From Candidatus Gastranaerophilales bacterium (GTDB lineage: Bacteria > Cyanobacteriota > Vampirovibrionia > Gastranaerophilales > Gastranaerophilaceae), in contig CALUVP010000120.1 in assembly GCA_944324215.1 (NCBI GenBank), positions 1 through 64,000 on the forward strand: DNA of 64,000 nucleotides, written 5' to 3'. The stretch's first letter is position 1. Every line of letters starts with the position of its first letter. The position numbers were made by a program, and so were the translations under genes. The notes under the pieces are model-generated. The model searched no databases. It was not told where the DNA came from and saw only the letters and a list, made by a program, of their open reading frames with translations. This document shows positions 1-32,536 of the stretch, one piece after another.

Positions 1-134
1 CAAAATAGATGAATACATTTATTATTACAATAATAGAAGATATCAATGGGGGTTAAACAAAATGACACCTTGTGAATACAGAGAATACCTTGCAATGTCC
101 TACTGACCGATTACGTTTTTAGGGGGATAATTCA
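1..134 (+). mobile_element. Right end of an IS3-family insertion sequence (cut by the window edge)
   Basis: The first 106 bases encode the C-terminus of an IS3-type transposase. After its stop comes a short non-coding tail ending in a G-run followed by ATAATTCA, finishing near position 134. IS3-family right ends typically close the element in ...TCA a few dozen bases after the transposase stop, so 114-134 is the likely right inverted repeat. The left end is outside the window, so the boundary and any target duplication cannot be confirmed. Confidence 0.6.
2..106 (+). CDS. IS3-family transposase OrfB, C-terminal 34 residues (partial)
   Basis: Reading from base 2, an open frame of 34 codons ends at TGA 104-106. 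It contains YIYYYNNRRYQWGLNKMTP followed by CEYR. The pattern YYNN-x-R-x(5-6)-L-x-x-x-[TS]P-x-[EQ]YR is the well-known C-terminal signature of the integrase core (rve) of IS3/IS150-type transposases. The start and the DDE residues lie outside the window, so it cannot be told whether the element is intact. It is the only transposon gene seen in the window. Confidence 0.7.
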   Translation, partial: KIDEYIYYYNNRRYQWGLNKMTPCEYREYLAMSY

Positions 135-224
135 AGAAACCCCAACCTACATCTGGTCAGGGCAGATACATAAAATGAGCTTTGCTGTTTAATAAAACCT
201 AGTTATAAATCTTAGTAATCAAAC

Positions 225-935
225 CTAAACTGAATATTTTCTCTTTTTTGATCTTTTTGTCGGTAAAGTCTCAATCATTTCTGCAAGAATTTTTGCTTGT
301 TCACTATGTTCATAATTGTATGTACACTTTTTTTTAGGTAGAATTTTTTTTAGAAGCTCTTTTATATCTGTAATAATAGTCCATTCTCGTCTATAACCTC
401 CATCATTATATTCAGTTATACTAAAAATATCTGTTAAAAAATCACCTACCATATAATATAGGTCGAGCTTTGTTTTCTTGCAAAAAGTCCTTATCTTGTT
501 GTTCAATACATTCATTTTGTCCTTAGGTGACATACTATCATAGTTATCAATTATAGTATTAACTCTTGGAACAAACTCATCAGAATTTACAAATGAAGTA
601 TGAGCTTCAAAAGTTTCTAGCTCACTATCTTTTTTGAAGGGAAGAGGCCTTATTAAATGAAATTTTTTTGCAATACTAGATTGACGTTTAGCATAATAAT
701 CCAAGTGTGATAGCGTTTCAAACGGCTCATTACTAACAATTTTTAAGATTAAATTGTCATTACGTTTCCCAGTTTCTATAAGATTTGTTATCGCTTGTTT
801 AGCAACCTCAAAATTTTCGCCATAAACCATAGAAGGTATAAGATTCTTTAAAAGTTTTTTAGAACTTTTTGTGTATAAAGCTCCAAATGATGGTGAGTAA
901 TTTGATTTTTCGTTAAAATTATTAATAACAAGCAT
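225..935 (-). CDS. Unknown protein, 236 aa, with an N-terminal SPSFGAL motif
   Basis: I do not recognise the family. The start is supported by a strong ribosome binding site (AGGAGG four bases before the ATG). The protein is soluble, lysine-rich and has no signal peptide or membrane segment. Near the N-terminus (about residues 12-20) is NYSPSFGAL, which resembles NYPNFKAA at the same place in the calpain-like protein at 33457. The tail is very basic (KRSKKRKYSV). It sits between an IS end and the rpoB promoter region, transcribed away from rpoB, so it may be an accessory gene. Confidence 0.7.
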   Translation of the reverse strand: MLVINNFNEKSNYSPSFGALYTKSSKKLLKNLIPSMVYGENFEVAKQAITNLIETGKRNDNLILKIVSNEPFETLSHLDYYAKRQSSIAKKFHLIRPLPFKKDSELETFEAHTSFVNSDEFVPRVNTIIDNYDSMSPKDKMNVLNNKIRTFCKKTKLDLYYMVGDFLTDIFSITEYNDGGYRREWTIITDIKELLKKILPKKKCTYNYEHSEQAKILAEMIETLPTKRSKKRKYSV

Positions 936-28000: not shown

Positions 28001-28155
28001 TCAAAAGACTTAGAAAAAAATATTAATGTTTTTTTAGTTATAATAGCCTTGTATTACTCAATATTATTGATTTTAATCCGTAAAATTTCTGATTACCGGT
28101 TCAATAGATAAGAATTGAATAAACTTTTATAGTGTTATCACAAGGTGGTGTCACT

Positions 28156-29061
28156 ATGAAAAAAATTTTATCAATAACTTTAATATTTATATACATATCT
28201 ATTTCACACCCAGCACTAGCTGCTATTTCAACACAGGCAAGCACTATTTCTAAAATAGAAAATAGTATATATGGATTTGATTATACAAAAGATTCAACAA
28301 AAAAACGTGTTGAGCGTTTAGAAAAAACTATATATGGCAAAGTTAATACAGGTGACATTAATAAGCGATTAACAAAGCTTTCTGGCGATATTTCTGCAGA
28401 CGTAATAGGACTGGAAATTCCACCAGTTGAAGATACTTTTGCGGAGCAGGAAGAAGTTGCTTCTGCTGATAGTTCAGTTAATTATCCGATTGTGGATGAA
28501 ATAGAAAAGAAATTGTTTAATGAAACATACAAAAATAGAGATTTTCATACTAGGATTGTTACTATTGAAAAGAAGCTTTTTGGTAAAGTCTATGATATAG
28601 ATGATTATGCTACAAGAATGGATAGAATAAAAGCAGAAATTATGCCGGAAACAGTAGATTATACAGATAGATTTGCACACGAATACAGGGATAATAGAGA
28701 TAATGACATGCTCACCTCTGATGATTTATCAGGCAGTTCATTAAGCAGATTCAGTATGCCATTTGGTCAAAGAAATTATACAAGACCATATGCAAATTAT
28801 GGTGATGAATTTACTGGTGCAGCTTCCTCAACACAAAACTATAATACTAATTTGAATGATGAATTAGCACAATTAGAATATGAGACTTTTGGTACAGAAT
28901 TTTCTAATGAAGATACAACAAGCAGGATTAAACGCTTAAATAGTGTAAATCAAGCAAAGAAATCTTCACAACGATATGATTCAAATAAATTTACCCAAAG
29001 AATGTCAACTGCAATGGAAATAGGAGCAATGATTTTAATGATTCTTGCTATGGTTTTGTAA
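28156..29061 (+). CDS. Secreted repeat protein with E-x3-[FY]-G motifs
   Basis: The start at ATG 28156 follows AAGGTGGTG. A cleavable signal peptide is clear (residues 1-23, basic start, hydrophobic core, ending HPALAA). The mature protein carries about five copies of a motif of roughly 25-30 residues: [IL]E-x3-[FY]-G-x3-[YF]-x6-R-[IL]-x2-[IL], for example LEKTIYGKVNTGDINKRLTKL and IEKKLFGKVYDIDDYATRM. A hydrophobic stretch (about 288-300) ends the protein. Similar repeats occur, as far as I recall, in other Melainabacteria and Cyanobacteria, but I know no function. Confidence 0.75.
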   Translation: MKKILSITLIFIYISISHPALAAISTQASTISKIENSIYGFDYTKDSTKKRVERLEKTIYGKVNTGDINKRLTKLSGDISADVIGLEIPPVEDTFAEQEEVASADSSVNYPIVDEIEKKLFNETYKNRDFHTRIVTIEKKLFGKVYDIDDYATRMDRIKAEIMPETVDYTDRFAHEYRDNRDNDMLTSDDLSGSSLSRFSMPFGQRNYTRPYANYGDEFTGAASSTQNYNTNLNDELAQLEYETFGTEFSNEDTTSRIKRLNSVNQAKKSSQRYDSNKFTQRMSTAMEIGAMILMILAMVL

Positions 29062-29164
29062 TGTACCAATATATTTGTAAATTTTGTATAGGTATATTGT
29101 ATAATTATTATATACGATATATAATAAGATATATAGGAAACAATTCCTAGGGATATGATATCTT

Positions 29165-29299
29165 ATGAATAATGGATTTATAGCAACTTATGTAAAACAT
29201 ATTGCTGCTGGATTTTGCAGTAGTTTTGTTGTGTTGTTTTGCATAAGTTGCTTTTCTTTAACTTTAATTGTTCTTGAAAAATGTGAGGTGCTGAAATGA
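29165..29299 (+). CDS. Possible 44-aa hydrophobic leader protein of the flagellin gene
   Basis: ATG 29165 opens a frame of 44 codons whose TGA (29297-29299) overlaps the flagellin ATG by the ATGA arrangement typical of translational coupling. The product has a central hydrophobic stretch of about 24 residues rich in Phe, Cys and Leu and ends in a charged tail (EKCEVLK), consistent with a single membrane helix. The ribosome binding site (AGGGA) is rather far from the ATG. The frame contains the whole hairpin described at 29183. It could be real, a regulatory leader ORF, or chance. Confidence 0.3.
   Translation: MNNGFIATYVKHIAAGFCSSFVVLFCISCFSLTLIVLEKCEVLK
29183..29251 (+). promoter_or_regulatory. 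Large hairpin in the flagellin leader
   Basis: GCAACTTATGTAAAACA (29183-29199) pairs with TGTTTTGCATAAGTTGC (29235-29251): 17 bp with a single mismatch around a 35-base loop. A T-rich stretch follows (TTTTCTTT). It could be an attenuator, an RNA-stabilising structure, or a recognition site, lying 44 bases before the flagellin start. No sigma28-type promoter was found by eye in 29062-29295. Confidence 0.55.
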
Positions 29300-31056
29300 G
29301 CCTTTCTATAAATACAAATCTATCAAGTAAAATTGTGCAGAGCTCATTAAAAACCTCTACAAATGCTCTTAATCGGGCAATAGAGCGCATGACAACGGGT
29401 TTTAAAATAAACAGTGCAAAGGATAATGCAGCAGGTTATTCAATAAATACAAACATGACAACCAAAATAGGAGCATATAAGGTAGCAGAGGATAACGCTT
29501 CTATGGGTTTGAATTTGTTGCTGACAGCCTCTGACAGCTTAAGTTTAATAAGCTCACATTTATCAAGAATAAGAGATTTAACAGAGCAGGCTTCTAATGG
29601 AACTTATGGATATGATTCAATGCGCACAATCCAATCGGAAGTAGATGCAAGAATGTCAGAAATAAGTAGAATAATCTCTACAACTGAATATAACGGTATA
29701 AAGCTGTTTGAAGGTGAAAGTTCCGGCTCAACTGGGTCAACAGGTGATTTTATAGAAGAAGTAACCCCGCTTACAGAAGAAGAGGCGATAAATCAAGGCT
29801 ACACAGTAATCAAGACTGCAGATGAATTGCAGGCAATGAAAGATAACTTGAGCGGTAAATATATCCTGATGAATGATATCGACCTTTCAGGTTATAATTG
29901 GGAGGCAGTGGGTGTAGATGATGTGAATCCTTTTACCGGCGAATTGAATGGTAACGGGTATGTTATAAGTAACCTGAAAATAAATAAACCGATAGAGGAT
30001 TATCAAGGTTTGTTTGGTGCGGTTATGGGTGGAACACTAAAGAATATCGCCTTAGAAAATGTTGATGTGACCGGGGTGGGATATGTTGGTGCTCTTGCGG
30101 GCGCGATACAAGGCGATATAACCAACAGCTATTCAACAGGTAGTGTGACAGGTGATACTGCTGTCGGCGGTCTTGTGGGGGTTATAGAAGGTGGTAATAT
30201 AACCAACAGCTATTCTACAAGTAGTGTGACAGGGGTTGGGTTTGTCGGCGGTCTTGTGGGGGTTATAGAAGGTGGTAATATAACCAACAGCTATTCTACA
30301 GGTAGTGTGACAGGTGATGCTGTTGTCGGCGGTCTTGCGGGGGGTATATTACAAGGTGATATAACCAACAGCTATTCTATGGGTAGTGTGTCTGGAGATG
30401 TTAGTGTCGGTGGTCTTGTGGGTCATATTGATACAGGTAGCATAAATGACAGCTATTCTGCAGGTAGTGTGGTCGGTAAAACTAATGTCGGAGGGTTTGT
30501 AGGTCAGAATACTAACAGCACCTTTGTCTCTTGTTATTACGATGCCCCAAAAAGCGGTCAGGCAATAGGAGTAGGTGATGGTGGTGGTACAGGAGTAAGT
30601 GGTGTAACAACATCCGAACTCAACGATTTGATATCAGCAGGTACGCTCCCGAGTTTTACAAAATCCAACGGCGTATCAGATATAACGCTACAGGTAGGTA
30701 TAGATTCTTCAGAGAGTTCAAAATTAACATTTAATACGGGGTTAGAGTTTACTCTTAATATATTTTTAACCTCGCAAGCAGGCGCAAGAGCTGCAATAGA
30801 AGCCATAGATAATGTATTATCTCAGATAAACAGTAAACAGACGGAATTAGGTTCCGCACAAAACAGGTTAGAAAGTGTATTGGAGTCGATATCAGTCCAG
30901 TATGAGAATTTGGTATCATCTCGTTCAACCTTGCGTGACGCTGATATATCGAAAGAGTCGAGTGATTATATAAGATACCAGATATTACAGCAAGCGAGTG
31001 CAACACTTCTTGAAACAGCAAACCAGAGTCCAAGTATAGCACAACACTTGCTATAA
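29296..31056 (+). CDS. Flagellin with a GLUG-repeat beta-helix insertion
   Basis: Residues 1-140 match the flagellin D0/D1 N-terminus (SINTNLSS, NRAIERMTTGFKINSAKDNAAGYSI, IRDLTEQASNGTY, ISRIISTTEYNGIKLF). Residues about 465-586 match the C-terminus (INSKQTELGSAQNRLESVL, RDADISKESSDYIRYQILQQ). Between lie about 300 residues unlike flagellin: a beta-helix entry (ILMNDIDLSGYNWEAVG, FTGELNGNGYVISNLKI, about 190-232) and six 27-residue GLUG-type repeats (248-409) with core NSYSTGSVTG...VGGLVG. GLUG repeats are known from adhesins and surface proteases. GAGGTG precedes the ATG. No other flagellar gene is nearby. Codon use looks richer in G and C than in neighbours. Confidence 0.93.
   Translation: MSLSINTNLSSKIVQSSLKTSTNALNRAIERMTTGFKINSAKDNAAGYSINTNMTTKIGAYKVAEDNASMGLNLLLTASDSLSLISSHLSRIRDLTEQASNGTYGYDSMRTIQSEVDARMSEISRIISTTEYNGIKLFEGESSGSTGSTGDFIEEVTPLTEEEAINQGYTVIKTADELQAMKDNLSGKYILMNDIDLSGYNWEAVGVDDVNPFTGELNGNGYVISNLKINKPIEDYQGLFGAVMGGTLKNIALENVDVTGVGYVGALAGAIQGDITNSYSTGSVTGDTAVGGLVGVIEGGNITNSYSTSSVTGVGFVGGLVGVIEGGNITNSYSTGSVTGDAVVGGLAGGILQGDITNSYSMGSVSGDVSVGGLVGHIDTGSINDSYSAGSVVGKTNVGGFVGQNTNSTFVSCYYDAPKSGQAIGVGDGGGTGVSGVTTSELNDLISAGTLPSFTKSNGVSDITLQVGIDSSESSKLTFNTGLEFTLNIFLTSQAGARAAIEAIDNVLSQINSKQTELGSAQNRLESVLESISVQYENLVSSRSTLRDADISKESSDYIRYQILQQASATLLETANQSPSIAQHLL
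30037..30522 (+). repeat. Six in-frame 81-bp repeats encoding the GLUG units
   Basis: Six units of exactly 81 bp (27 codons) run in tandem; the first is degenerate. Units 2 and 3, starting at 30118 and 30199, share long identical DNA stretches such as GTCGGCGGTCTTGTGGGGGT. Exact period and near identity suggest recent duplication and possible length variation between strains. Confidence 0.85.
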
Positions 31057-31071
31057 GTTATGTGAAATTAT

Positions 31072-31479
31072 TTATTTCCTTCCTGTATTTGTGTTTATTA
31101 TATCTGATACCCAAGGTATATAACTATATAATCCCATGCCAGCAGTTATAGCTAAATATAAAATAATTGTCGTAGTAAATACTTGGATGATAGAAAGTCC
31201 GTAAAACAAAGGAATTGGCATATTTACGAAATAAGGAATTGCATTAATTACAGGAATTCTATATAAAATTACGTAAATAAGTTCTGCAAAAGTTGCGATT
31301 AAAAAATATAAAATTGAAAGAAAAATTGATTGCAATATATGATATAGAAGAAATGGTGTAACATGCTTCTTTAAAATAGCAGCAATAATTAACCATACAA
31401 ACCCAGCACCACTAGCTGTCAAGTATGATGCGGCTGATATTATTCTTTCTATTGGGTATATTTTTCTAGAAGGCTGCAA
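31072..31479 (-). CDS. Tic20-like / DUF4870-type membrane protein
   Basis: The product (about 135 aa) has four predicted membrane segments. The order resembles the Tic20/Ycf60 and DUF4870 group: ERIISAASYLTASGAGFVWL, then a conserved-looking helix start LLYHILQSIFLSILYFL, a loop, and two more helices. The TTG at 31479 is preferred because AAAGGA lies eight bases upstream; an ATG at 31503 in the same frame has no ribosome binding site. It overlaps the end of the TPR gene and so belongs to the rpiB-rsfS-TPR operon. Cyanobacterial homologues of Tic20 have no settled role. Confidence 0.5.
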   Translation of the reverse strand: MQPSRKIYPIERIISAASYLTASGAGFVWLIIAAILKKHVTPFLLYHILQSIFLSILYFLIATFAELIYVILYRIPVINAIPYFVNMPIPLFYGLSIIQVFTTTIILYLAITAGMGLYSYIPWVSDIINTNTGRK

Positions 31480-32536
31480 TGATATCGTCCTTTCTGTATT
31501 CATCAATAAAATCATCTAAAACCTGGATGAATACTAATTTATACTCATCATTTTCAGGACGCATATTTACTGCGGCTCTATATGAATATATCGAACGTTC
31601 TACTTCATTATTCATATAATAAACGTTCGCTATTAGAACATATATACTCGGATCCAGTTTATTAATTTTCAAAGCTTCTTTATATTGAGCTTCTGCTTCA
31701 TTATATTTTTTCAAATTGGAATATAAATTACCTGTTAGAATATAAGCATTTGCTTCTTTTGGATTAATTTCTATTGCCTTTTTATACAATTCTACGGCGT
31801 CTTCATACTCTTTGAAATCTGATTTTGCAATAGCGTAGCAAATATATGCCTTATAGTTGTCTCCAGGTAGTGCAATTGCTTTTTCAAAATAATCGTAACA
31901 CTTTTCTTTGTCCTTATTTACAGCTAATGTATTTGCAATACAAAGTGCTACTGTTTTATTATCCGGAGCGAGCGCAAAAACTTTATAATAATATTCTAAG
32001 GCCTTATTATAATCAAATAATTTGAAACAAACATTTCCAAGATCAACAAGTGCAGTAAGATTTTCAGGTTCAAGAGATAATGCTTTTTCATAATAGGCTC
32101 TAGCTTCAACAAAATCCTCAAAATCATGATATAAAAGAGCAATTGCATTATATACTTCAGGATCTTGAGAGTTAAAATCAAGAGTTCTATTATAAAAATG
32201 CAATGCCTTTGGAAAATTTTTTAACTCTGCATATGTATTTGCTAAATTGTAATATACAAGGTAGTTACTTGGATTTACTAACATAGCTTGATTAAAGTAT
32301 TTTAAAGCTTTTTTGTAATCTTTTGAATAGAACCAAATACTACCCAAGTTCAAAAGTGTCTGCAAGTCCTTTGGATCAATTTCCAACAAACTTTCATAAA
32401 CAGAAATAACTTTTTCATACTGATTATCCATCGCGTAATACTTGGCTAATTCATGATAATGTTCTGTATTATTAGGTTCTAATGCCATTTTTAAAACAGT
32501 TTTCTCAATGGCTTTATTTAATTCTTTTTTATCCAT
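31466..32536 (-). CDS. Tetratricopeptide repeat (TPR) protein, 356 aa
   Basis: About nine TPR units of 34 residues fill the whole protein, with typical signatures such as YYNLANTYAELKNFPKALHFY and ALVDLGNVCFKLFDYNKALEYY. No signal peptide or membrane segment is visible, so it is likely a cytoplasmic scaffold for protein-protein contacts. It starts five bases after the stop of rsfS and overlaps the Tic20-like gene, within one operon. Partners cannot be told from sequence. Confidence 0.92.
   Translation of the reverse strand: MDKKELNKAIEKTVLKMALEPNNTEHYHELAKYYAMDNQYEKVISVYESLLEIDPKDLQTLLNLGSIWFYSKDYKKALKYFNQAMLVNPSNYLVYYNLANTYAELKNFPKALHFYNRTLDFNSQDPEVYNAIALLYHDFEDFVEARAYYEKALSLEPENLTALVDLGNVCFKLFDYNKALEYYYKVFALAPDNKTVALCIANTLAVNKDKEKCYDYFEKAIALPGDNYKAYICYAIAKSDFKEYEDAVELYKKAIEINPKEANAYILTGNLYSNLKKYNEAEAQYKEALKINKLDPSIYVLIANVYYMNNEVERSIYSYRAAVNMRPENDEYKLVFIQVLDDFIDEYRKDDIIAAF

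Follow-up and report, generated by a model that had tools for sequence, protein, structure and literature searches.

The window, as we call the whole 64,000-nt stretch of DNA analysed here, comes from a MAG of Candidatus Gastranaerophilales, a gut-type relative of the cyanobacteria, and carries on its forward strand a flagellin gene whose middle encodes GLUG repeats. The gene and its surroundings have the following features:

29062..31071, no strand assigned: added flagellin unit; the flanking genes P309 and M147 lie side by side in L323-L326
29182..29252, + strand: leader hairpin with an 18-pair outer stem, then a T-rich stretch (MFE -37.3, z -4.8 for segment 29160-29295)
29283..29289, + strand: likely ribosome-binding site GTGAGGT, 7 nt 5' of the ATG (sequence reading)
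29296..31056, + strand: GLUG flagellin gene, 586 aa (ORF list, Pfam, AlphaFold2 model)
29308..29718, + strand: Flagellin_N, D0/D1 N-terminal helices, residues 5-141 (Pfam PF00669, E 3.4e-28; model helices 9-129)
29719..29775, + strand: D1-to-insert linker, residues 142-160, low confidence (pLDDT <50 at 141-151)
29776..30606, + strand: beta-helix, residues 161-437 (pLDDT mostly 90-97; structure and profile matches)
29818..30123, + strand: entry domain of Peptidase_M26_N type without catalytic motif, residues 175-276 (Pfam PF05342, E 1.1e-8)
30035-30520, + strand: 81-nt DNA repeats of the GLUG region
30085..30567, + strand: six GLUG repeats of 27 aa each, residues 264-424 (Pfam PF07581, 6 stretches; lag-27 identity)
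30796..31041, + strand: Flagellin_C, D1/D0 C-terminal helix, residues 501-582 (Pfam PF00700, E 1.6e-16; model helix 494-577)

Both ends of the protein are those of a flagellin. Pfam finds complete Flagellin_N and Flagellin_C domains (98.9 and 60.8 bits, both well past the cut-offs) and D1 superposes on crystal structures, in agreement with the preliminary description, which had taken the D0/D1 ends to be intact. NCBIfam flagellin models also match both ends, and the full-length models all stay below their cut-offs, as expected because the middle of the protein is foreign. That middle had been read as a beta-helix entry domain followed by six 27-residue GLUG repeats, and the same arrangement is recovered in three ways: Pfam matches both Glug (6 stretches, 70.3 bits against a gathering score of 20.5, E 8e-20) and Peptidase_M26_N (above its gathering score), the 27-residue period gives a lag-27 identity of 0.49 against a maximum of 0.21 among 500 shuffles, and the structural model places a beta-helix at residues 161-437. 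The underlying 81-nt DNA units share up to 86% identity, which suggests that the GLUG copy number has been altered recently through tandem duplication.

Related identities can be set aside. No HExxH motif was found in the window protein, which has three His in all 586 aa, and this rules out a protease function. The lack of HExxH also rules out a flagellinolysin, for which the NF033876 score is 31 bits against a cut-off of 205, and FlgL/HAP3 is ruled out by a TIGR02550 score of 76 bits against a cut-off of 127.

An AlphaFold2 model of the protein, built with 22 homologues, mounts a beta-helix (residues 161-437) on flagellin helices 9-129 and 494-577. With a pTM of 0.56, the model leaves uncertain at what angle the beta-helix stands to D1. 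For D1 itself the best comparison is with 4nx9 (Z 20.2, rmsd 1.5 Å over 157 residues spanning 59..535), and the matches to 4nx9 and 1io1 cover both termini (59..535 and 57..543, rmsd 1.5-1.6 Å). Because the two ends superpose on D1 crystal structures across both termini, the insert leaves D1 unbroken in the model. The preliminary description had proposed asking whether the insert folds as a beta-helix on D1, and the predicted structure answers that it does, with D1 packing kept. Of the two results named there as speaking against the idea, a domain search empty of GLUG or beta-helix matches and a structure with broken D1 packing, neither was obtained. The closest structures to the insert are beta-helices of IgA1 metalloproteases, 7uvk and 3n6z (both Z 30.3) and 6xja (Z 29.1), and the alignment profile of the insert finds 3n6z (E 6.5e-28) and 6xjb (1e-14) by sequence. 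The model thus supports a GLUG beta-helix that replaces D2/D3, is predicted to be surface-exposed and is compatible with D1 packing.

Flagellins with inserted domains are an already known kind. Eckhard et al. (2017; PMC5595980) counted 61 domain types in flagellin variable regions, among them Peptidase_M26 in 17 sequences (their Table 1), and presented the Peptidase_M26 flagellins as putative enzymes. Since the M26 N-terminal model, which describes a non-catalytic beta-helix, recognises the window insert, their tally of 17 probably includes the GLUG-flagellin architecture under another name; likened in this way by domain name, the two are very probably the same or similar (PMC5595980). The claim that no GLUG flagellin had been described therefore holds in part: our literature search found no text that joins GLUG with flagellin, but the probable architecture was already tallied in 2017 under a protease name. 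What appears to be new is the recognition of a non-catalytic beta-helix, the dedicated lineages, the exchange of modules between flagellins and giant surface proteins, and a repertoire of genes that bear tracts, all described below. Flagellinolysin (NF033876; PMC5595980) offers a parallel in its intact flagellin ends, its foreign functional domain in place of D2/D3 and its scattering among paralogues, but its insert is a gluzincin metallopeptidase, whereas that of the window is a repeat beta-helix without HExxH. Similarly, NTD2 of the M26 IgA1 proteases (6xja, 7uvk; putative homologue 3n6z) resembles the insert in fold (Z 29-30) and in sequence profile, but the window protein has neither their MD/CTD catalytic region nor their HEMTH motif, and its beta-helix sits in a flagellin.

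GLUG flagellins are, by domain content, a recurring class in Gastranaerophilaceae. In a family sample of 288 genomes Flagellin_N is present in 119 and an insert homologue in 64, and at least 19 hold a verified, intact N-GLUG-C frame (G000, G005, G029, G040, G059, G092, G117, G137, G147, G154, G179, G188, G193, G206, G213, G238, G256, G274 and G280); these counts of GLUG flagellins are lower bounds, with only part of the matches fetched. Another family of the same order has one GLUG flagellin (L237), and one more (L103) lies in a MAG labelled Clostridia, a placement that is unsure, with neighbouring genes that leave its taxonomy unsettled. Most genomes have 6-11 flagellins, and once there are 23 (G092). 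The best identity to the window insert in the 288-genome sample is 53%, and whole-protein identity reached 62% in another search; the window gene has neither a close orthologue nor a tract of the kind described below, so function may differ between copies.

Of eight Flagellin_N matches in the window genome, six are plain flagellins, one is weaker and resembles FlgL, and one is the GLUG flagellin, which sits outside the flagellar gene clusters of the window; no GLUG was found in this genome beyond the window gene. Its flanking genes, a 309-aa ORF (28132-29061) and a 147-aa ORF (31072-31515), adjoin with nothing inserted in many relatives, among them G433, G400, G441 and G417 with a spacer of about 10 nt, and the same spacer in the window is 2.0 kb long and holds the flagellin unit. 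Judged by this gene order, the window gene has come to its site recently. In the closest relatives (G234, G409 and G446) the junction between the two ORFs is disrupted differently, by a rearrangement breakpoint. One of these, G234 (L328/L331/L335), has a 1,978-aa ORF near the junction, where a GLUG match falls. A binning error or contamination of the contig is unlikely, since housekeeping genes and the neighbours of the flagellin follow the gene order of genus relatives. The leader hairpin is stable relative to dinucleotide shuffles of segment 29160-29295, which gave the z of -4.8, but a conserved RNA leader is rejected because the upstream regions of relatives fold otherwise.

To follow the ends separately from the insert, the flagellin tree was built on D0/D1 only. 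On this tree the GLUG flagellins fall into a few lineages apart from plain flagellins. Well-supported branches impose a minimum of 5 changes, where shuffled labels need 30. Because their D0/D1 lineages lie apart, GLUG flagellins are, on the evidence of this tree, maintained subfamilies and not recent accidents, and the small number of changes suggests that the insert was gained or lost several times and mostly kept within dedicated paralogue lineages. The insert has other relatives in the same genomes, giant GLUG surface proteins in open frames of 3,000 to 11,061 codons. These share the entry domain and the GLUG repeats at about 50% identity, but carry tens of modules per protein and are without flagellin ends. 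In the entry-domain tree, a short alignment with weak support, they interleave with flagellins (23 changes on the best tree, 5 of them forced), which points to module exchange between the two classes. The longest of the giants occurs in G064 (G064:C5), and others on G112:C1, G092:C6 and G040:C1 complete a range of about 6,600 to 11,061 codons. For one orthologue pair of GLUG flagellins (L019/L020) dN/dS is about 0.71 in the insert against 0.27 and 0.08 in the flagellin ends, which as a single pair is weak evidence.

Many relatives of the window gene carry homopolymeric tracts, counted here as runs of 8 or more G or C between -200 and +600 nt relative to the start. Leaving out, against bias, the loci that had been retrieved by a G9 pattern (L146-L175), we find tracts at 23 of 55 GLUG flagellins and at none of the 38 plain flagellins (Fisher p = 7e-7), and the association persists without G092 (14/44 against 0/35, p = 1.5e-4). 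Tracts concentrate at flagellins, yet occur at other genes too. Upstream tracts of G9-G13 lie about 50-120 nt 5' of the start in several genera (L019-L022, L025, L077, L101, L203, L228, L231, L232). In genus g33 they fall inside the coding sequence, at +421 to +473, precisely at the passage from D1 to the insert; linker residues 142-160 of the window gene are the same spot. The window gene itself has no tract (no G/C run in the window exceeds G6, which lies at 30339), and with no unstable simple repeat in or 5' of the gene we reject phase variation of this copy. Elsewhere in the window genome five G9+ tracts occur at G000:C40, C41, C135 and C140, none of them at a flagellin.

The clearest case of tract-bearing paralogues is G092 (L207-L223), where 23 Flagellin_N matches include about 12 GLUG flagellins with a G8-G13 or C11 tract at the D1/insert junction. 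Four of these are in frame (L211, L215, L216, L218), and seven are split at the tract with the remainder open in another frame (L207, L210, L212, L213, L214, L219, L220). Tract length (G8-G13) by itself fails to predict the frame in all paralogues, because the sequence right after the tract differs among them. Between the orthologues L019 and L020 the flanking sequence hardly differs, and the tract is G9 against G13. As the data are metagenome assemblies, we infer from the tracts and out-of-frame alleles of the relatives a signature of slipped-strand switching, i.e., phase variation. This resembles the poly-G/C contingency loci of, for example, Campylobacter (PMC6321876, PMC3068675), where G/C homopolymers likewise lie in or just 5' of surface genes and some alleles are out of frame; the difference is that in these relatives the tract lies within the flagellin gene or ahead of it, at the D1/insert border, and that the window gene has none. 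In the L019 and L020 leaders the G9 or G13 tract falls between TTTACA and TATAAT, with spacers of 14 and 18 nt, like a phase-variable promoter spacer. Poly-G as a general promoter spacer is not claimed, as other leaders are without such hexamers.

The window gene would, on balance and with some reservation, be best explained as a minor flagellin that co-polymerises with plain ones and displays its beta-helix outward as a recognition module. The D0/D1 ends would direct export and polymerisation into the filament alongside the six GLUG-less flagellins of the genome, and the GLUG beta-helix would protrude from D1, a surface module built of repeats that duplicates in tandem and changes fast. The filament would then present a recognition or antigen module in many copies, and the benefit would be attachment to surfaces or mucus, antigenic variation, or both. 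A quite different fate of the protein, as a cell-surface or periplasmic one that borrows flagellin ends for export without polymerising, or as an unexpressed one, could be suspected from the position of the gene outside flagellar clusters and from reported flagellin homologues on the cell surface (3k8v and 2zbi, titled 'bacterial cell-surface flagellin'). However, the D0/D1 ends are both present in full, down to the conserved C-terminal motif, and several flagellins per genome are normal in this family (6-11 in most), which makes such a role improbable.

The preliminary description had supposed that the GLUG flagellin turns the flagellum into a binding fibre, possibly for gut mucus. We infer a binding fibre as well, and the module in giant surface proteins together with the tracts of relatives agrees with a role, in binding or as an antigen, that faces the host or a surface; mucus as the ligand does not follow from them. 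To our knowledge no ligand has been demonstrated for GLUG domains. The fold similarity raises the idea that the insert still interacts as its IgA1-protease relatives do, binding immunoglobulin A but leaving it uncut, given that the nearest solved folds are NTD2 of these enzymes, a non-catalytic gating beta-helix of which some strands touch IgA1-Fab (PMC9637739). However, high affinity of the enzymes requires further domains (PMC9637739), identity is just about 25%, and GLUG beta-helices occur in many proteins unconnected with IgA, so we give this idea very little credence. The insert could also have no ligand of its own and act as an antigenic or phage-receptor decoy, with repeat change and on/off switching serving to evade IgA, TLR-directed surveillance or flagellotropic phages. 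Flagellin variable regions are known to serve as antigens and phage receptors (PMC7018530), and the phase-variation tracts and OFF frames of relatives, the near-relaxed dN/dS of the insert in L019/L020 and the shuffling of modules with giant surface proteins all speak for a decoy. Escape by itself, however, leaves unexplained the repeated use of one fold, common to the giant surface proteins and the dedicated D0/D1 lineages, and we consider a pure decoy unlikely, if less so than the other two alternatives.

Taking the outward-displayed recognition module together with the features of its relatives, we tentatively suggest, at slightly less than even chances, that gut Gastranaerophilales maintain a phase-variable, module-shuffled repertoire of adhesin-flagellins. 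Dedicated lineages would bear repeat modules, of the GLUG type or others, that are traded with giant surface proteins. Strand slippage in poly-G/C tracts, placed in the leader or where D1 meets the insert, would choose which flagellins enter the filament, so that a cell could reprogram its filament surface. A tract at the D1/insert border predicts that single cells toggle individual flagellins by one-base changes. If filaments display the module, the flagellum of an abundant, little-studied gut lineage would also serve as a fibre of variable surface for binding or for antigen display. Flagellins with functional inserts would then extend from enzymes to repeat adhesins, there would be a reason for keeping 6-11 (once 23) flagellin genes per genome, and the architecture would provide a natural beta-helix display scaffold.

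Other flagellins in the data also have repetitive middles. L223, L226 and L235 (and the partial L234) are giant flagellins of about 1,440 aa (616 aa for L235) with a non-GLUG middle, whose repeats by eye resemble RTX-type GGxGxD beta-roll units; Pfam gives no RTX match for L226. Finally, a 1,450-aa flagellin without a Pfam match in its middle (L227, G086:C18) carries a different tandem repeat there.
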